Assembly (NCBI RefSeq): GCF_023910635.1 | Contig: NZ_JAAVVZ010000002.1 | Span: forward strand, 62,001-126,000 | Source of the DNA: Sphingorhabdus sp. | GTDB lineage: Bacteria > Pseudomonadota > Alphaproteobacteria > Sphingomonadales > Sphingomonadaceae | DNA length: 64,000 nucleotides | Direction: 5' to 3' | Shown here: piece after piece, positions 25,778-51,873 of the stretch | Numbering within the stretch: position 1 is the stretch's first letter | How the letters are laid out: each line of letters opens with the position of its first letter | The notes under the pieces: generated by a model | What the model was told of the DNA's origin: nothing | What the model saw: only the letters and a program-made list of their open reading frames with translations | Databases searched by the model: none | Position numbers and translations under genes: made by a program

Positions 25778-27185
25778 GTCCGCAAATGACCCCTTTGAAA
25801 CTGCCGACCCACAGGTCGCTCGCCTGTTAGCCGAGGAGCGGCCCGGCGACAATGCCCAGGCGATGAGCGTGTCGGAACTGTCGCTTGCCCTGAAACGCAC
25901 CGTTGAGGACCGATTCGGCCATGTCCGCGTGCGCGGGGAGATTTCGGGGTTCAAGCGCGCGGCGTCGGGGCATATCTATTTTTGCCTGAAAGATGATAAC
26001 GCACGGCTCGACGCGGTGATGTGGAAAGGCGGCGCGGCCCGGCTGCCCTTCGCGCCGGAGGATGGGCTTGAGGTTGTCGCCACAGGCAAGCTCACCACTT
26101 ATGCGGGCCGCTCCAATTATCAGATCGTCGTCGATAGCCTTGAGGTGGCAGGCGAAGGCGCGATGATGCTTTTGTTTGAAAAGCTGAAAGCGCGCCTTGC
26201 AGCAGAAGGGCTGTTTGCGCCCGAACGTAAGAAGAAACTGCCGGCACTGCCCCGCGTTATCGGTGTGGTTACATCGCCCACGGGCGCAGTCATCCGCGAC
26301 ATCTTACACCGGCTGGCCGACCGCTTCCCAACACATGTCATCATCTGGCCCGTATTGGTGCAAGGCGAAGGATCGGCGGCACAAATATCGCGGGCAGTGA
26401 ACGGATTTTCCGCGATGCCGCAAGATGGCCCGGCCACGCGCCCCGACCTTGTGATTGTCGCGCGCGGTGGCGGGTCGATTGAGGACCTATGGGCATTTAA
26501 CGATGAAGCCGTGGTCCGCGCAGTCGCCAATTGTACGATACCGATTATCTCGGCGGTAGGGCATGAAACTGATACCACCTTGTGCGACTTCGCGGCTGAT
26601 CTGCGTGCGCCAACGCCGACGGCTGCCGCCGAAATTGCGGTGCCGGTGCGCAGCGATCTGTTACAACGCGTCGGCCAATTGGGCCTGCGCATCGCGAACA
26701 TAGTGCGCAAGCGGGTGGACCTGGCGGCGGAACGGCTTGAGGCGCAACGCCGACTGATGCCGCGTTTGTCCGACCTTGCCGCGCCGCACCAGTTACGCAC
26801 CGATGATCTTGCCGAACGCCTGCGCCAGTCGCTGCGCACGCGCGTCGGCAAGGCGGAGATCGCCTATTCCGGGCCAGCGATGATGCTGCATCCGCGCCTT
26901 TTGACCCGCCGTGTCGAACAAGGGCAGCAACGGCTGGATGCGCTGACCCGGCTTGCCGGTAGCCTGCATCCCGAAGCCCCGCTGAAGCGCGGTTTTGCCC
27001 GCGTAACCGATGCAGACGGCAAAACCATTATGTCGCGGGCCGCAGCGGTGAAGGCGGGCGACGTGACCCTGCGGTTCGTCGATGGCGAAGTCCGCAGCGT
27101 CGTCAACGGCTCTGCTCCGCCGCGATCCTCGACGCCCAAACCCAACATACCAACGGTTAATCAGGGCAATCTGTTCGACGGCTGA
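25776..27185 (+). CDS. xseA: Exodeoxyribonuclease VII large subunit
   Basis: ATG 25776 gives 469 residues; ATG 25761 is an in-frame alternative. An N-terminal OB-fold ([20 protein letters not shown]) is followed by the catalytic domain ([20 protein letters not shown]-like segment, [40 protein letters not shown]) and a coiled region. It degrades single-stranded DNA together with XseB, which is not in this window. The start lies on the purD start, so its promoter must lie within purD coding sequence. Confidence 0.95.
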
Positions 27186-27229
27186 AGCGACGCATTGCCC
27201 ATTGCGCGTCGATGCGCCATAATGCAGCC

Positions 27230-27433
27230 ATGCTGATGTCTTCCAAAAACAAAGTCGCCCGCCTGCATTATATGGCCAATAGCTTCCGTCTACTGACCGC
27301 AGGCGACCATGTCGTGTGCGCGGTGACTGGGCAGGCCATTGCGCTGGAAGAGCTGCGTTACTGGAGCGTCGTTAAGCAGGAGCCGTATGTGAGCGCAGAG
27401 GCATCCACCCGCGCGGCATTGACCAAAGGCTGA
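27230..27433 (+). CDS. DUF2093 family small protein
   Basis: A ~67-residue protein matching the DUF2093 pattern (ARLHYMANSFRLLTAGDHVV; CAVTGQAIALEELRYWSV), which is a small, probably soluble protein conserved in alphaproteobacteria with unknown role. ATG 27230, 27236 or an earlier ATG at 27212 could be used. It follows xseA by 44 bp and precedes the M23 gene by 4 bp, so it is probably in an operon with them; the xseA-DUF2093-M23 order looks like a conserved neighbourhood, which I cannot verify here. Confidence 0.8.
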   Translation: MLMSSKNKVARLHYMANSFRLLTAGDHVVCAVTGQAIALEELRYWSVVKQEPYVSAEASTRAALTKG

Positions 27434-27437
27434 ACGG

Positions 27438-28304
27438 TTGGCGGGCATAAGCCGGGTTTTGCGCGCAACCATCCCGGCTTTGATCGGTCTTGCCTTTGCG
27501 GTGGCACCAGTTTCCGCGCAGCCGCAGGTTCCTTCCCAAACAAACCCGGCCGAGTTCTGGATGTCCGGCACTGCTGTGCAAGGCGGCCTTGTCATCGGCC
27601 GCGCGCCCAAGGGGGCAAGCAGCGTATTTTTAAACGACGCGGCGGTAGAGCTTAGTCCGGACGGGTTCTTCCTGATCGGTTTTGACCGTGACGCACCGAT
27701 GGAGGCAAGGCTGGTCGCGATGCTGGCCGATGGCAGCAAGATGGAGCGCAATATCGCCGTCGCTCCGGGCAATTGGCGCATCGAACATGTTGCCGCAAAC
27801 ATCACCGGCGGCGCGACAAGCTCCGCCGAATTTCAGGCCCGGCGCAGCGCGGAGCTCGCACGGATTACGGCAGCGCGCGCCGTCCGCAGCAATAGTGCAG
27901 GCTGGCGGCAAACATTCATCCGCCCCGTATCGGGCCGCATATCGGGGCTATTTGGCGCGCAGCGCATTTATAACGGCACGCCGGGCAGCTATCATAATGG
28001 CATGGACATCGCCGCTGCCCAAGGCCAGGATTTCGTCGCGCCAGCCGACGGCGTAGTAACCCTTGCCGCTAATGATGCCTTCACTTTGGAGGGCCATTTG
28101 CTGATGATCGACCATGGCATGGGGTTGAACAGTGCATTTTTACACGCGTCCGAATTATTGGTCAAAGAAGGCGACCTTGTGCGCCAAGGCCAAGTCATTG
28201 GCCGCGTCGGCGCCACGGGCAGAGCCAGCGGGCCGCATGTGCACTGGGGCATGAGATGGAACAGCGCCCGGATTGATCCGAAGTTATTGTTGCCATCCAA
28301 TTGA
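27438..28304 (+). CDS. M23 (LytM-type) peptidase, exported
   Basis: TTG 27438, with AAAGG eight bases upstream, gives a 288-residue protein with a signal peptide (ATIPALIGLAFAVAPVSAQ). The C-terminal ~130 residues form the peptidoglycan endopeptidase fold with zinc ligands in YHNGMDIAAAQG and HVHWGMRW and a catalytic-region FLHASELLVKEGD. It would cleave peptide cross-links or activate an amidase in the periplasm. Confidence 0.9.
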   Translation: MAGISRVLRATIPALIGLAFAVAPVSAQPQVPSQTNPAEFWMSGTAVQGGLVIGRAPKGASSVFLNDAAVELSPDGFFLIGFDRDAPMEARLVAMLADGSKMERNIAVAPGNWRIEHVAANITGGATSSAEFQARRSAELARITAARAVRSNSAGWRQTFIRPVSGRISGLFGAQRIYNGTPGSYHNGMDIAAAQGQDFVAPADGVVTLAANDAFTLEGHLLMIDHGMGLNSAFLHASELLVKEGDLVRQGQVIGRVGATGRASGPHVHWGMRWNSARIDPKLLLPSN

Positions 28305-28328
28305 CGCGGCTTGATCGATGGATCGGGA

Positions 28329-28446
28329 AACAAAAGGAAACACCCCGGCGTTTAGGCCGGGGTGTTAGGTCGCTGGCCTAGAAGGGGGGGCGGCCATCTG
28401 GTCAACATTTGCTTTTACCCATTTGTTGACTTGGAAATATTGTTTC
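28329..28446 (-). ncRNA. Candidate EcfG-dependent small RNA with a C-rich loop
   Basis: Read on the minus strand, an EcfG-type promoter (28454-28479) is followed by a gene-less segment with three predicted hairpins. Hairpin 1 (28430 to 28401) has the 7-bp stem GTCAACA/TGTTGAC. Hairpin 2 (28396 to 28374) has stem TGGCC/GGCCA and a 13-nt loop carrying seven consecutive C. Hairpin 3 (28366 to 28339) is a strong 11-bp terminator stem followed by the T-rich TTTCCTTTTGTTT. A transcript of about 115 nt is expected. A C-rich loop suits pairing with Shine-Dalgarno sequences, as described for the sigma-T-dependent RNA GsrN in Caulobacter. It could alternatively be the 3' UTR of phyR. No transcript data are available. 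Confidence 0.5.
28339..28366 (-). terminator. Intrinsic terminator
   Basis: An 11-bp perfect stem AACACCCCGGC/GCCGGGGTGTT with a 6-nt loop. The T-rich tail lies on the minus-strand side only, so it ends leftward transcription (candidate sRNA or phyR) rather than the M23 gene, though the stem may also slow that transcript. Confidence 0.8.
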
Positions 28447-28453
28447 GAAAAGC

Positions 28454-28479
28454 AAACTATAGTGTCGAGACATTGTTCC
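28454..28479 (-). promoter_or_regulatory. EcfG-type promoter (sRNA candidate)
   Basis: On the minus strand GGAAC (28479-28475), a 17-bp spacer, and GTTT (28457-28454). Spacing and boxes agree with the phyR promoter in this window. No protein gene lies downstream before the terminator. Confidence 0.6.
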
Positions 28480-28486
28480 CAAAAAA

Positions 28487-29269
28487 TTATGCAGCCTTTG
28501 AACTCATGTCGACATCCCGGTGCATCAGCAACGCCTGACCAATGGTGGCGATGACAGTTTCCGGTTCAAAAGGCTTGGTGATCAGATAGGTCGGCTCGGG
28601 ACGTTCGCCGGTAAGCAGGCGTTCGGGAAAGGCTGTAATGAAGATCACAGGCACCGTCTGTTCAGACAATATGTCTTTAACGGCATCAATGCCACTTGAA
28701 CCATCGGCAAGGCTGATATCGGCCAGTATAAGCTCTGGCCGTTCGTCACGCGCCTTGGCCACAGCTTCTGCCCGGGTGCGCACAATGGCGATTGTTTCAT
28801 GGCCGAGGCTTTCTACAATCTGCTTAATGTGCAGCGCGATGATCGATTCATCTTCAATGATGAGCACGCGCGCAGACAGTGCATCTTCGATCGCACTGCG
28901 TGCCGCCTGAACATGTTGGCGCACATCGTCTTGGCTCATGCCCAAAATCACGCCCACATCGGCGAAAGTAAAACCTTCAACCGTGGCCAGCAGCAAGCTT
29001 TGTCGGCGCTTTACCGGGAATTGCGCGATCACACCGCTGCGCCCGCGCGATTCGAGTGGCGCAATCATTTCGCTGTTCCAGATCCGATGAAATGTTTTGA
29101 ACAGCTCGGTTTTGGCCGGAGCTTTTTCATCCCATTCTTCAGGAGCTTCCAATAACGCTTCCAATGTTTCGCGCACGGCCGCGTCACCCAGTGATTGTGA
29201 CCCGGTCAGTGCCCGTGCATAACGCCTAAGATATGGCAATTGTGATGCCAGTTGCTGTCTGAATGACAT
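28487..29269 (-). CDS. phyR: General stress response anti-anti-sigma regulator PhyR
   Basis: The 260-residue protein has the PhyR architecture: an N-terminal ECF sigma-like domain (regions 2 and 4; EGFTFADVGVILGMSQDDVR around residue 98-117) and a C-terminal receiver domain. The receiver has acidic residues in VLIIEDES, a phospho-acceptor Asp ~184 in ELILADISLADGSSG, and Lys ~232 in ITKPFEP. When phosphorylated, the sigma-like domain sequesters NepR and frees EcfG. AAGGGAG precedes ATG 29269. The gene is divergent from nepR-ecfG and has its own EcfG-type promoter, implying positive feedback. Confidence 0.97.
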   Translation of the reverse strand: MSFRQQLASQLPYLRRYARALTGSQSLGDAAVRETLEALLEAPEEWDEKAPAKTELFKTFHRIWNSEMIAPLESRGRSGVIAQFPVKRRQSLLLATVEGFTFADVGVILGMSQDDVRQHVQAARSAIEDALSARVLIIEDESIIALHIKQIVESLGHETIAIVRTRAEAVAKARDERPELILADISLADGSSGIDAVKDILSEQTVPVIFITAFPERLLTGERPEPTYLITKPFEPETVIATIGQALLMHRDVDMSSKAA

Positions 29270-29294
29270 AATTGCTCCCTTTGCTAGCGAAACT

Positions 29295-29322
29295 AATACG
29301 TTCGAACTGCAATTTTGTTCCC
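29295..29322 (-). promoter_or_regulatory. EcfG-type promoter of phyR
   Basis: Minus strand GGGAAC (29322-29317), 16 bp, CGTATT (29300-29295). The -35 GGAAC is arranged back to back with the GGAAC facing nepR, 8 bp away, forming GTTCC-N8-GGAAC. Confidence 0.75.
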
Positions 29323-29329
29323 GCTTGAT

Positions 29330-29355
29330 GGAACAATATCATCTTTAATTGCTTA
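29330..29355 (+). promoter_or_regulatory. EcfG-type promoter of nepR-ecfG (weaker -10)
   Basis: GGAAC at 29330-29334 followed after 16 bp by GCTT (29351-29354). The -10 is less canonical than the CGTT form. It would autoregulate the nepR-ecfG operon. Confidence 0.5.
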
Positions 29356-29479
29356 ATTGCCTATGATAAAAAATCTTCGCCTGCCCGAATTGTGGTATTG
29401 AGCCATGGGTATAACGACAGAAAATGGTCAGCCTGGGTCCGACACGTTGCCGGGCGTTTGGAATGACGGAGGGGGTCAA

Positions 29480-29659
29480 TTGGCTATCAATAAAGGCAAG
29501 CGGCAAGCGGGGGAAGCAATGGACCCGGAATTTGATTCACTCACTGCGGCGTTACGCCAGATGCATGACAGCATTGCCAATGAACCTGTCCCTGACGACT
29601 TTCTTGACCTTCTGGACCAAATCGATGCCAAAATATCGGCCTCCAAGAAAATATCGTGA
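29480..29659 (+). CDS. nepR: Anti-sigma factor NepR
   Basis: The core helices ALRQMHDSIANEPVPDDFLD and LLDQIDAKIS are the NepR signature. The start chosen is TTG 29480 because GGAGG lies seven bases upstream and the resulting 59 residues match usual NepR length. ATG 29405 (84 residues) has no ribosome binding site, and ATG 29519 would give only 46-47 residues. NepR binds EcfG and keeps it off RNA polymerase until phosphorylated PhyR removes it. The stop overlaps the ecfG start by 4 bp, tying the anti-sigma and sigma ratio through translational coupling. Confidence 0.9.
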   Translation: MAINKGKRQAGEAMDPEFDSLTAALRQMHDSIANEPVPDDFLDLLDQIDAKISASKKIS

Positions 29660-30270
29660 GCGCCTTGCCGGTGGAATCGCGTCCTATATCTGAAAAGCGC
29701 GATGCATCCGATGATTTTCGAGCGCAGATGGTCGCGCTCATCCCATCTTTGCGTGCTTTTGCACGCGGACTATGCGGCAATCGGGAACTTGCGGACGATC
29801 TTGCGCAAGAGGCTATGATGCGGGCATGGGCCGCGCATGCAAGCTTTACCCCTGGAACCAATTTCCGGGCGTGGATGTTCATGATATTGCGCAATCAGTT
29901 TTATACAACGATGCGGAAAAATTCGCGGATGACGAGTTGGGACCCCGAGGCCGCCGAACGGCTGCTGGTGGAGGCGCCGCCGCAGCAACACCACATCCAC
30001 ATGAGCGATGTTGAAAAGGCGTTACAAAAGCTGCCCGCTGAACAACGCGAGATACTGATGCTGGTAGGCGCAGGCGGTGCCAGCTACGAAGAGGCAGCGG
30101 TTATTACGGGCTGCGCCATCGGTACGGTCAAAAGCAGGCTAGCGCGCGGCCGCGTGGCATTAGCAGCGTTGATTAACGGTCCCGACGAAGCCGTCTTGAA
30201 GAAGCCCGCCAGATCAAAGCCGGTTCGGAGCACATTGCCCAAGCACCCTGACCCCATGCCGAGCATTTGA
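29656..30270 (+). CDS. ecfG: ECF15-type sigma factor EcfG
   Basis: The 204-residue protein starts at GTG 29656 within the nepR stop. Sigma region 2 (LIPSLRAFARGLCGNRELAD; FRAWMFMILRNQFYTTMRKN) and region 4 (LQKLPAEQREILMLVGAGGA; YEEAAVITGCAIGTVKSRLA) are complete. A basic ~25-residue tail follows region 4. As the general stress sigma factor of alphaproteobacteria it recognises GGAAC-N16/17-(C)GTT promoters; several such sites lie in this island. Confidence 0.96.
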   Translation: MSALPVESRPISEKRDASDDFRAQMVALIPSLRAFARGLCGNRELADDLAQEAMMRAWAAHASFTPGTNFRAWMFMILRNQFYTTMRKNSRMTSWDPEAAERLLVEAPPQQHHIHMSDVEKALQKLPAEQREILMLVGAGGASYEEAAVITGCAIGTVKSRLARGRVALAALINGPDEAVLKKPARSKPVRSTLPKHPDPMPSI

Positions 30271-30336
30271 GTGTGAAGTTACCATCCGCCCGGGATTAGG
30301 CCGTAGACACAAGAATACCACCTTCGAGGCACCAAA

Positions 30337-32028
30337 ATGGCATTTTTGCGACCAATGACCATGCGACGCGGGCTTATTCTGGTCGTGTTCGCCGCATTGC
30401 TGCCTGTGGCTGTTGCAAGCTTTATCCAAGGCATGTCGACTTTGGAAAATACGCGAAAATTGGCCTTTGATCGGTTGAAAGGAACGGCAAGCGCGGTTGC
30501 CGAACGGCAACGCGACCCGTTTGTAATTGCACAGCATCTGTTGCTCGCGCACACAACGAACAGTGATGTCATCCGCATGACCGATGATTGCGATTCTGCG
30601 TTGCGCATATCTTTAAGCAATTATCCGCCCGTTACTAATATAGCCCGAACAGCAGCAGATGGCACGGTGCGCTGCTCTGCCATGCCGCTTTCCAAGCCCG
30701 TTAATATTGCGAACGAAGGTTGGTGGCAACGCGGGGTCAGTGCGAATGGTATGACCATTACAAAGGCGCCCATTTTCGCGACCATAGCCCAAAGGAATGT
30801 CTTGTTCCTTATCCTGCCGTTGCGCACCGCCGATGGTCAATCGGACGGCACAATCACTGCGGCCATTGACGTAAAATATCTACGCGACGGGTTGCGCCAA
30901 GCCGCGCGCGGCGGCGCGGGGGCGTTAGCGATTGTGACCCGCGACGGCATGAATGTGGCCAGTGGCGACCGGCCGCTGCCCTTTTCGCCCGACGTCACAG
31001 CGCGCCAGAACCAACCCGTCGAGATCCGCGATAGCAAGGGTAGATTATGGATTTACACGCTGCATAAGCTCTACAGTTCTGACCTGTTTGTCGTCTATGC
31101 AGAACCGCGAGATACATTAATGGCAGCGGCGGTGTCGCAAGTGCGCGCCAGTATCTTGTTACCTTTGATTTCCATATTGCTTGCATCCATTGCCATCTGG
31201 GTCGGAACCAATCGTTTGGCCTTGATATGGTTGCGCGAATTGCGGATTGTTTCGAGGCGCTTCGCCCAAGGTGATTTCACAGGTGACCGCCACAAATTTG
31301 ATAGTGCGCCCCAAGAAATAGCCGCATTTAGCGCAGATTTGCACAGCATGGCCGACGTCATCGACCGCCGTAATACCGATCTGACGCAAGCGTTGGAGGC
31401 CAAAACGCTGCTGACGCGTGAAGTGCACCATCGGGTCAAAAACAACCTGCAGATCATCAACAGCCTGCTGACATTGCAATCGGGCCGTGTGCGTGAAGGC
31501 CCCGCGAAGGAGGTGTTGGCACAAACCCGTGCGCGGATAAATGCTTTGGCGCTAATCCACCGGCTTTTGTACGAAAGAGATAATGGCTATGAACGCGGCG
31601 AAGTGCCGATCAATAGCCTCCTGGCTGAACTATGCGCGCAGTTGCGCGGTGCGAGCCGGTCAATGACTCAAGTCCAGTTGATCTGCCACGCAAGCAATGT
31701 CCCGGTTCCCATCGAATATGCCGTACCATTGACTCTGTTCGTGGTTGAAGCGGTCACCAATGCCTTTCGCCATGCATTCCCCAAGGGCATGCGTGGAGCA
31801 ATCATCCTTCGCTTCGATCTGGATGGCGAGAGTGCCATTTTGGACATTTCGGACAATGGACAAGGGTATGTTGTCAGCGACGAAGCCGCACAAATGGGCA
31901 CGGAATTGATGCGCGGATTTGCCACCCAAGTAGACGGCAAGCTGTCGATATCAAGCAGCGAGGGGAACGGGACAAAAGTCGCGTTGAGTTTCCCGCTGCC
32001 AAATACGCCGGCAGCTTCGACACTTTAG
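30337..32028 (+). CDS. Membrane sensor histidine kinase, HisKA_2 type (PhyP-like)
   Basis: Residues ~11-30 and ~272-292 are membrane segments enclosing a ~240-residue periplasmic sensor domain of the Cache type. A HAMP-like linker leads to the HisKA_2 dimerisation helix with REVHHRVKNNLQIINSLLTL (His364/365). The ATPase domain has an N-box (FVVEAVTNAFRHAF) and a G-box (LDISDNGQGY). GAGG lies seven bases before ATG 30337. In Sphingomonas the adjacent kinase PhyP acts on PhyR, largely as a phosphatase; by position and class this gene is a good candidate for the same role. The sensed signal is unknown. Confidence 0.88.
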   Translation: MAFLRPMTMRRGLILVVFAALLPVAVASFIQGMSTLENTRKLAFDRLKGTASAVAERQRDPFVIAQHLLLAHTTNSDVIRMTDDCDSALRISLSNYPPVTNIARTAADGTVRCSAMPLSKPVNIANEGWWQRGVSANGMTITKAPIFATIAQRNVLFLILPLRTADGQSDGTITAAIDVKYLRDGLRQAARGGAGALAIVTRDGMNVASGDRPLPFSPDVTARQNQPVEIRDSKGRLWIYTLHKLYSSDLFVVYAEPRDTLMAAAVSQVRASILLPLISILLASIAIWVGTNRLALIWLRELRIVSRRFAQGDFTGDRHKFDSAPQEIAAFSADLHSMADVIDRRNTDLTQALEAKTLLTREVHHRVKNNLQIINSLLTLQSGRVREGPAKEVLAQTRARINALALIHRLLYERDNGYERGEVPINSLLAELCAQLRGASRSMTQVQLICHASNVPVPIEYAVPLTLFVVEAVTNAFRHAFPKGMRGAIILRFDLDGESAILDISDNGQGYVVSDEAAQMGTELMRGFATQVDGKLSISSSEGNGTKVALSFPLPNTPAASTL

Positions 32029-50042: not shown

Positions 50043-51182
50043 ATGTCTTCTATTCGTCCTTGGCGCGACATTGCGCGCCGTCCGTCCCGCCAGATCATGG
50101 TCGGTAAAGTCCCTGTCGGCGGCAATGCCCCGATCTCGGTGCAAACCATGACCAATACGCTAACCAGCGATGCTGCGGCCACGATCGACCAGATCCGCCG
50201 GTGTGAGGATGCAGGCGTCGATATCATTCGCGTATCCTGCCCCGATGTGGAGAGCACGGCGGCGCTGAAACAGATTGTCCGTGCGGCCAATGTACCCATC
50301 GTCGCCGACATTCATTTTCATTACAAACGCGCGCTGGAGGCGGCGGACGCTGGCGCGGCATGCTTGCGGATCAACCCCGGCAATATCGGTTCGTCCGAGC
50401 GTGTGAAGGAGGTGGTCAACGCCGCCAAAGCCAATGGCTGCGCGATCCGGATCGGCGTGAACGCAGGCAGCTTGGAAAAAGACTTGCTCGAAAAATATGG
50501 CGAGCCTTGCCCGGAGGCGCTGATTGAAAGCGCGCTTGACCATATCAAGCTGCTGCAGGACCATGACTTCCACGAATTTAAAGTCGCGGTGAAGGCATCG
50601 GACGTTTTCCTCGCGGTTGCCGCCTATATGGGCTTGGCCGACGCCGTCGACTGCCCCTTGCATTTGGGCATTACCGAAGCGGGCGGGTTGATTGGCGGCA
50701 CGGTCAAATCATCCATCGGCATGGGCAATTTGTTGTGGGCAGGGATTGGCGATACGATCCGCGTCAGCCTGTCTGCCGAACCCGAAGAAGAAGTGCGCGT
50801 TGGCTATGAAATTCTGAAGGCCTTGGGCCTGCGCACACGCGGCGTGCGCGTCGTAAGCTGCCCAAGCTGCGCCCGCCAAGGCTTTGACGTCATCCGCACG
50901 GTGCAAAAGCTTGAGGATGCGCTTGGCCATATCAAGACACCCATGTCGCTCTCGGTCCTCGGCTGCGTCGTCAATGGCCCCGGCGAAGCGCGCGAGACCG
51001 ACATCGGCATAACTGGCGGCGGCAATGGCAAGCATATGGTCTATCTGTCAGGCGTCACCGACCATCATGTCGAGGATAACGACATGATCAGCCACATCGT
51101 GCGTCTGGTCGAAGCCAAAGCCGCAGAGATTGACGCGGGAACCAGCGTGAGCATGGATACGCTGCACGGAAAAGCGGCTTGA
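50043..51182 (+). CDS. ispG: 4-hydroxy-3-methylbut-2-enyl diphosphate synthase
   Basis: From ATG 50043 the 379-residue protein has the IspG TIM-barrel start ([20 protein letters not shown]), [20 protein letters not shown], and the 4Fe-4S ligands in [14 protein letters not shown] plus [18 protein letters not shown]. It acts in the methylerythritol phosphate route to isoprenoids, here feeding carotenoids and quinones. It appears monocistronic. Confidence 0.96.
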
Positions 51183-51187
51183 GTGTT

Positions 51188-51216
51188 TTCTAGAAATATT
51201 GTATAAAATTCTAGAA
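51188..51216 (+). promoter_or_regulatory. Operator with two TTCTAGAA palindromes (VapBC promoter)
   Basis: Perfect 8-bp palindromes at 51188-51195 and 51209-51216 are 21 bp apart, two helical turns, and enclose AT-rich sequence with a TATAAA. This is suited to cooperative binding by the VapB or VapBC complex for autoregulation. Confidence 0.65.
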
Positions 51217-51226
51217 AGGGGATATC

Positions 51227-51484
51227 ATGGGCCTCAGCATAAAAAATGACGTAACCGAACAATTGGTGCGCGAGCTTGCCCGCCGCAAGGGCGTGGGTGT
51301 AACGTCCGCGGTCGATCTTGCTGTCCGCAACGAATTGGCGATTACGCCGCCGCTGAAGAAAGACCCGGCCGCGATTATGGAAGCGGTCCGGAAGATTCAG
51401 GAACGCGTGGCAAAACTTCCCATGTTGATGTCTGATGCAGATGTCGACGCGTGGATGTATGACGAGAATGGCCTGCCACATTGA
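51227..51484 (+). CDS. vapB: VapB-family antitoxin
   Basis: The 85-residue protein starts with an MGLSIKNDVTEQLVRELARR segment, a ribbon-helix-helix-like Rv0623/PSK family N-terminus, and ends with an acidic tail (MLMSDADVDAWMYDENGLPH) that would wrap the toxin. GAAAGGGG precedes the ATG. The stop overlaps the toxin start by 4 bp, which ties toxin synthesis to antitoxin translation. Confidence 0.88.
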   Translation: MGLSIKNDVTEQLVRELARRKGVGVTSAVDLAVRNELAITPPLKKDPAAIMEAVRKIQERVAKLPMLMSDADVDAWMYDENGLPH

Positions 51485-51873
51485 TTGTTGTCGATACTTC
51501 AGCGCTCGTCGCCATTCTTCTCAATGAAGACGGGTGGATGGAATATTTCACAAAAATTGTTGAGGCTGACCGCGCAATAATTGGCGCACCAACGAAGTTT
51601 GAATTTTTGATGGTGAGTAAAGGCAGGATATCTGAATCTGGCATCGCTGATGCGGACGCGTTAATATCTGCTCATCACATCAATGTGGTGGACTGGACTC
51701 CCAAATTTGCCGATGTTGCTGGTCAGGCGTTCGTGCGTTTCGGCAAAGGACAGCATAAAGCCGCTCTTAACTTTGGCGATTGCATGGCCTACGCGCTGGC
51801 AAAGTCGCTGGATGCTCCATTGTTGTTTAAGGGCAATGATTTTTCACAAACCGATGTTAAATGCGCTCTGTGA
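51481..51873 (+). CDS. vapC: VapC-family PIN-domain toxin
   Basis: The 130-residue protein starts at TTG 51481 and has the PIN-domain acids in IVVDTSALVAILL (Asp5), APTKFEFLMV (Glu), and LNFGDCMAYALAKSL (Asp), ending with LLFKGNDFSQTDV. It would be a Mg-dependent RNase inhibited by VapB. It overlaps the next gene by 13 bp. Confidence 0.92.
   Translation: MIVVDTSALVAILLNEDGWMEYFTKIVEADRAIIGAPTKFEFLMVSKGRISESGIADADALISAHHINVVDWTPKFADVAGQAFVRFGKGQHKAALNFGDCMAYALAKSLDAPLLFKGNDFSQTDVKCAL

Follow-up and report, generated by a model that had tools for sequence, protein, structure and literature searches.

A candidate EcfG-controlled small RNA with a C-rich loop behind phyR in Sphingorhabdus

Described C-loop RNAs and the stress locus of the window

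RNAs of the GsrN kind are already known. According to the accessible parts of the original paper, a sigma-T promoter drives GsrN, whose loop of six C pairs with the katG leader, as demonstrated with reverse-swapped and compensatory mutations, and homologues of GsrN are usually located near sigT, nepR or phyR; the legend to Figure 9 names Erythrobacter litoralis as a species without an apparent gsrN-like gene (PMC5869019). A second described type, represented by SmelA075 and SmelA099 of Rhizobiales, exposes anti-Shine-Dalgarno-like sequence in hairpin loops carried on variable stems, as stated in the available excerpts of that study (PMC3927594). Among Rfam families, RF01529 (CC3552) very probably corresponds to GsrN (ccna_R0081), since the length (106 nt) and the source agree. 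CC3552 is reportedly a name from a 2008 Caulobacter screen. For ccna_R0081, the accessible text of the GsrN paper cites the 2008 Caulobacter screen (PMC5869019). In sphingomonads, work on the general stress response has addressed transcription, for example in Sphingomonas melonis Fr1 (PMC6599016), and the available portion of that work gives the EcfG motif from transcriptome data as GGAAC-N17-20-GTT. A full-text literature search, outside which most subscription journals and preprints fall, returned no description of such an RNA in sphingomonads. The small-RNA terms searched for do not occur in the main text of the S. melonis Fr1 paper (PMC6599016) and are absent from stress papers on S. melonis and Sphingopyxis granuli except for one reference entry (SuhB), while a review of ECF sigma factors, in its accessible part, mentions sRNAs but not GsrN.

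The window, a stretch of 64,000 nt, comes from a freshwater sphingomonad of the genus Sphingorhabdus (genome G000, 3.05 Mb in 89 contigs). Based on Pfam matches, it harbors the complete core general stress locus, consisting of phyR, nepR, ecfG and a histidine kinase gene. The candidate RNA element is located on the minus strand between the phyR stop and a convergent M23 peptidase gene. The features are as follows.

28487..29269, minus strand: phyR, anti-anti-sigma response regulator (Pfam PF22029, PF22233, PF00072), directly upstream of the candidate RNA gene and on the same strand
29405..29659, plus strand: nepR, anti-sigma factor (PF18557); the true start may be further downstream
29656..30270, plus strand: ecfG, general stress sigma factor (PF04542, PF08281), presumed driver of the RNA promoter
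30337..32028, plus strand: HWE/HisKA_2 sensor histidine kinase (PF07568, PF07536)
28454..28479, minus strand: EcfG-type promoter GGAAC-N17-GTTT by motif match (GGAAC at 28479-28475, GTTT at 28457-28454)
28401..28430, minus strand: 5' hairpin GTCAACA/TGTTGAC of 7 bp by folding, a variable part
28374..28396, minus strand: C-loop hairpin TGGCC-GCCCCCCCTTCTA-GGCCA with a 13-nt loop, C7 run at 28384-28390
28330..28366, minus strand: predicted intrinsic terminator, 11-bp stem at 28339-28366 and a T-rich tail on the minus strand

The preliminary description of this DNA had placed a GGAAC-N17-GTTT promoter, a 7-bp hairpin, a TGGCC/GGCCA hairpin with seven C in its 13-nt loop and an 11-bp terminator on the minus strand of a gene-free segment. 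Each of these parts was found at its claimed place, and among the ORFs listed around the site none of at least 60 aa covers positions 28340-28480. The putative promoter fits the EcfG motif of S. melonis Fr1, and transcription would start near 28447. In the predicted RNA of about 115 nt, the loop begins approximately 57 nt from the start, i.e. about mid-RNA, on a short stem of its own. The 122-nt stretch containing the element folded better than 200/200 shuffles (z = -3.63), and its terminator probably also ends the phyR transcript.

We consider it probable that the element encodes an EcfG-controlled small RNA of about 115 nt with its own promoter and intrinsic terminator, whose C-loop pairs with G-rich mRNA leaders in the manner of GsrN. 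The earlier proposal of a separate RNA, controlled by EcfG and equipped with a C-rich loop like that of GsrN, is still the best reading of the sequence, given the promoter motif, the covarying stem, the C-rich loop, the terminator and the persistence of the element beside phyR across the clade. We infer that the element is transcribed under the control of EcfG and that its loop pairs with mRNA. Transcription would proceed leftward from the EcfG promoter just behind phyR up to the intrinsic terminator. Stress would free EcfG, and the RNA would be made alongside other stress-response genes; the hairpin would offer its C-rich loop to mRNA leaders with G-rich stretches, which are probably Shine-Dalgarno regions, and the pairing would alter translation or stability of these mRNAs, as GsrN does for katG in Caulobacter.

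Conservation within the genus and alternative readings

Among 45 genomes of the genus, 20 harbor a PhyR match at E 1e-20 or better. A C-loop hairpin and a terminator are located behind phyR in 15/16 genomes with a PhyR identity of at least 72%, the exception being L012. The covariance model R1, which comprises hairpin and terminator and excludes the promoter, was trained on those 15 loci. Strong R1 matches (57-86 bits) were found in 17/45 genomes, including two beyond the training loci (G015 and G024), and the next best match reached 28 bits; at E 0.1, any R1 match was present in 31/45 genomes, those beyond the strong 17 being weak. Directly upstream, GGAAC-N16/17-GTT was detected in 15 of the 17 strong R1 genomes. 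The exceptions are G010, which reads GGGGTC in place of GGGAAC and carries an in-frame TAA in phyR, and G024, for which no phyR was found and where hairpin and terminator follow another small ORF without a promoter. Promoter and C-loop are both present in 10/11 genomes of the genus that have PhyR at 72% identity or more, no internal stop and ecfG; the remaining genome (G013, locus L012) has intact phyR and ecfG and no element behind phyR. No C-loop was found behind phyR in 4 genomes with a distant PhyR of about 62% identity (L023-L026).

Two layouts were observed. In the main one (11/15 loci), the promoter, reduced to a remnant in L017, is located about 6-7 nt after the phyR stop, and where it is intact the C-loop hairpin starts 55-58 nt after GTT. 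In the second one (L018-L021), GGAAC-N16-CGTT overlaps the phyR stop (position -21), the C-loop hairpin follows 23-25 nt after GTT and the 5' hairpin is absent, so that the predicted RNA is about 75 nt long. The promoter precedes the C-loop in both. The 7-bp 5' hairpin is thus real in the window and not a constant part of the RNA, missing as it is from L018-L021 and kept in L016 only with mismatches (read by eye). With two layouts, one of which lacks this hairpin, promoter, C-loop and terminator are the constant parts of the R1 RNA, and because no other conserved parts are visible, pairing of the loop with G-rich leaders is the simplest reading.

The stem of the C-loop, seven pairs in length, was assessed on a MAFFT alignment (A2) that was not fitted to the structure. 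In this alignment 94.3% of cells form standard pairs, and sliding the stem partners lowers the pairing to 13-45%. Three of the seven pairs changed on both sides, a number reached by 4/500 shuffles, and the covariation score of 0.234 was reached by 0/500, with the caveat that related sequences may score above their shuffles even where no structure exists. For example, columns 10-36 read T-A in 8 sequences and C-G in 7. Further pair types were not above chance level (4 in the stem, 4.2 in shuffles). The longest run of C in the loop ranges from 4 to 9 among 15 members, window included, with six or more in 13/15. Seven C is therefore a local value; of the expectation that the stems covary while the loop stays fixed, the covariation of the C-loop stem holds and the fixed loop does not. 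Together, covarying stem and variable C runs show that the stem changes while the loop remains C-rich rather than identical. In 5/15 loops CCTCC is present, which is the complement of the Shine-Dalgarno core GGAGG; this agrees with the idea of Shine-Dalgarno pairing and is no test of it. A comparison of the element with its flanks in five close relatives gave no useful contrast (mean identity 0.87 vs 0.85), the flank including coding DNA.

Several other readings have to be weighed. It is unlikely that the element amounts to no more than the phyR mRNA 3' end, with a double-hairpin terminator, an incidental GGAAC and no discrete RNA. Although phyR runs straight into the terminator with no other terminator-like site listed between, and G024 keeps both hairpins behind its small ORF without the promoter, the motif is present in 15/17 members and at two positions, compared with 63 of 6900 windows of 80 nt drawn at random from 69 other stress loci, and a plain terminator has no need of a C-rich loop hairpin with a covarying stem. 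Processing of the RNA from the phyR 3' UTR by RNase cleavage, with the same action of the C-loop, seems to us quite unlikely, as a near-consensus EcfG promoter is located exactly between phyR and the hairpin. The position directly behind phyR on the same strand would suit such processing, and induction would look alike since phyR itself is expected to be under EcfG control; both routes could also be active side by side.

The discrete EcfG-promoted RNA has further to be viewed against the state of the stress locus in the genus. An ecfG match at E 1e-20 was found in 17/45 genomes, one of which, G034, has a distant match only (38% identity). Four genomes (G002, G029, G038 and G039) have no ecfG match and a phyR without its beginning, with no nepR or ecfG adjoining it in the loci read, yet they keep promoter and hairpin. 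In G015, PhyR is reduced to its last 31 residues and the terminator stem is mutated; the promoter motif is intact and the hairpin is kept. Several of these ecfG-less or damaged genomes that carry the element are fragmented assemblies. As the element is kept in genomes without an ecfG match, either it does not strictly depend on a working EcfG and can serve without it, or the decay of the locus is recent. The stress locus was seen to erode stepwise in the genus, with phyR carrying a stop codon, truncated or not found and ecfG missing (G002, G010, G015, G024, G029, G038, G039; L017, L027, L028, L052, L053, L170, L171). We regard it as very unlikely that the element is a relic, functionless in some species, left over while the lineage loses its general stress response. 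The 28/45 genomes without an ecfG match at E 1e-20 point in this direction, as do the phyR stop and lost GGAAC of G010, the terminator mutations of G015 and the missing promoter of G024; on the other hand, the locus is complete in the window genome, and promoter decay in G010 and G024 accompanies damage to the stress system, as would be expected of a functional part. Finally, that the transcript codes for a small protein is hardly conceivable, since the 18-codon frame readable across the loop in the window is broken in relatives by loop insertions and stem changes (read by eye).

C-loop RNAs at the stress loci of other genera

The preliminary description had presented the RNA as an arm of the sphingomonad response and had proposed to look for the same arrangement of promoter, loop and terminator near phyR in sphingomonad genomes. 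The arrangement recurs within the genus; outside it, R1 matches stay below 30 bits and other genera carry a different RNA with two C-loops at the stress locus (R2, see below), so the wider claim was abandoned. In 199 genomes of the family, other genera scored at most 29.3 bits with R1 (25 candidates scored per genome, strict filters). On reading, most of 27 weak R1 loci of other genera (L143-L169) were judged ordinary terminators. At one of them, L146:1407 (G193), 32 kb from phyR, we observed an EcfG motif followed by AGCCAGCCG-CCCCCGACCCCT-TGGCTGGCT and a terminator. Its loop, GCCCCCGACCCC, holds CCCCGAC; the complementary string, GUCGGGG, is found among the target sites of GsrN in Table 1 of the accessible text (PMC5869019). 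Directly behind phyR, no C-loop was recognised in 23 loci of other genera (L029-L051).

A strict descriptor of promoter, C-loop and terminator found 2 matches (L204 and L267) in 100 stress loci of other genera, compared with a mean of 0.13 and a maximum of 1 for 60 permuted promoter motifs. The true motif is about five times commoner than the permuted ones in those loci (343 vs 71), hence around 0.65 descriptor matches are expected by chance and the two found are weak evidence. The descriptor missed R2, probably because in that RNA the second C-loop hairpin doubles as the terminator. Scanning for a promoter and a terminator without an ORF yielded four candidates (L052, L072, L119 and L124). 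The pattern GGAAC-N16-CGTT-N18..48-C7 was more effective than the strict descriptor, with matches in 38 of the 199 family genomes and one match for the reversed control pattern.

In most of the pattern matches listed, a sequence close to TCGGATAGCGACCTTTTGCCCCCCCGCTCTCGCTATCC precedes a long-stem hairpin that carries a second C-rich loop; a T-rich tail follows this second hairpin in many loci. A histidine kinase match lies ahead on the same strand in 19/30 loci fetched. The R2 alignment was built from 24 of the 30 loci (L278, L279, L280 and L285 were dropped as unlike; L286 and L290 were also left out). Both sides changed in 15/22 pairs, 97.1% of cells are paired and the covariation score is 0.352, compared with 0.163 when shuffled. 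With the resulting covariance model, matches at E 0.01 or better were found in 180/397 genomes of the family, the weakest of which may be chance. R2 reached at least 72 bits in 38/80 named phyR loci, including that of Sphingomonas melonis AS2.3 (L074), and at least 47 bits within 31/100 stress loci of other genera. In those 69 places R2 is always on the strand opposite to phyR at a median distance of 2.1 kb, and all 69 have two or more C runs of at least 5 nt. Upstream, we counted GGAAC-N16/17-GTT in 64/69 and, by hand, GGAAC-N18-GTT in the other five; the count is partly non-independent, some genomes having supplied training sequences chosen by promoter. The background in random 80-nt windows of these 69 loci is the 63/6900 given above. 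Matches to R2 were seen in L072, L074, L194, part of L274-L303 and others.

An Rfam search at E up to 1 gave no R2 match in ten loci, seven of which hold R2 (L072, L274, L281, L284, L298, L300 and L302). Order-wide, R2 was found at E 1e-6 in 65/247 genomes, all of the same family; of the genomes without a match, the listing covers the smaller part. Within the 45 genomes of the genus there was no strong R2 match and 4 weak ones (best E 0.003, 27 bits); the best score in the window was 15.5 bits (E 0.33), elsewhere than the element, and G000 gave no match. R1 and R2 were never found strong in one genome, as R2 has no strong match within the genus and R1 none outside it among 199 family genomes. 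The two resemble each other in their EcfG promoters, their place at the stress locus and the C runs in hairpin loops. Unlike the window RNA, R2 has two C-loop hairpins, the second probably also a terminator, and its place is on the strand opposite to phyR, some 2.1 kb away and in most cases behind a histidine kinase gene. R2 is best described as a second predicted RNA of the same design, unrelated to R1, at the stress locus of other Sphingomonadaceae.

Further candidates were found. For example, in a Caulobacteraceae stress locus (L119) there are an EcfG promoter, a loop of 8 C and a terminator, and the locus scores 80.4 bits against RF01529 (CC3552). At L278:1501, an EcfG promoter divergent from phyR precedes a clear hairpin with a C7 loop, and a terminator. 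In another genus, L267:7921 has much the same letters with C6, and there the best 130-nt fold pairs the C run elsewhere. In the stress locus of Alsobacter metallidurans (L124, Rhizobiales), an EcfG promoter, a GCCCCC-loop hairpin and a terminator were seen at minus-strand position 1258. Away from the stress locus, L285 (contig C12 of G074, where R2 is present too) holds a further predicted RNA behind an EcfG promoter, its two loops having 11 and 6 C. RNAs of the same design at other stress loci (L119, R2, L124, L278 and, less clearly, L267) were counted in favor of a C-loop RNA as the best explanation of the window element. It is an even question whether C-loop sRNAs are a standard output of the general stress response in Alphaproteobacteria, as an arm whose members are quickly replaced. 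At least three unrelated EcfG-promoted designs would then exist in Sphingomonadaceae (R1 behind phyR, R2 behind the histidine kinase, and L278/L267 divergent before phyR), with promoter and C loop kept and the RNA body reinvented or diverged beyond recognition.

Possible targets, significance and comparison with known systems

A screen of loop duplex energies against the starts of 65 crude gene calls, confined to the window, set no gene clear of random windows; nepR ranked fifth. Inside the nepR frame (window 29468-29520), GGAGGGGG and GCGGGGGAAG are located near possible later starts and could be a G-rich loop site, not significant in the window screen. UAGAAAGGGG precedes the start of a small gene at 51227; this gene was rejected as a target, the match coming from a palindrome ahead of it. 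A small two-gene locus with a TTCTAGAAA palindrome before its first gene is found at 51180-51873. We take this pair to resemble a VapBC toxin-antitoxin system and the gene at 51227 its antitoxin.

If our reading is correct, an EcfG-switched C-loop RNA would add a post-transcriptional arm to the stress response and could account for effects on genes that lack an EcfG promoter. The R1 and R2 RNAs are sphingomonad candidates, to be set against Erythrobacter litoralis without an apparent gsrN-like gene. R2 is present in Sphingomonas melonis AS2.3, and strain Fr1 of that species is a model for the stress response, so dependence on ecfG is directly testable in S. melonis. Overall, the retention of the element in close relatives, together with different RNAs of the same design at the control locus of related bacteria, suggests a general and largely undescribed layer of stress control.

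RNAs of the SmelA075 and SmelA099 type, which we take to be those named "cuckoo", share with the window RNA an anti-Shine-Dalgarno-like loop sequence on variable stems. As far as the available excerpts describe them, they carry the loop motif CCUCCUCCC in sets of three and four hairpins, whereas the window RNA has a single C-loop hairpin and CCUCCUCCC is absent. With regard to GsrN, the window RNA falls outside the covariance family: with E up to 10 for window positions 26000-31000 and up to 0.1 for G000, RF01529 gave no match, in a search that found only Caulobacter vibrioides among 14 control genomes and also found the genome of L119. The sole Rfam match overlapping the element in 26000-31000 was CC0196 on the terminator (E 0.84, below the gathering score), and membership was rejected. 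The C loop of GsrN, as reported in the accessible text, is in the 5' part, which is released as a stable isoform and alone is sufficient for function, whereas the predicted window loop is mid-RNA. In other respects the two are alike, GsrN being taken here as that same text presents it: both have an EcfG/sigma-T promoter (in the window a motif only), a length of around 100 nt, an exposed C-rich loop and an intrinsic terminator, and the window RNA, encoded directly behind phyR, would present seven C in a 13-nt loop where GsrN presents six.
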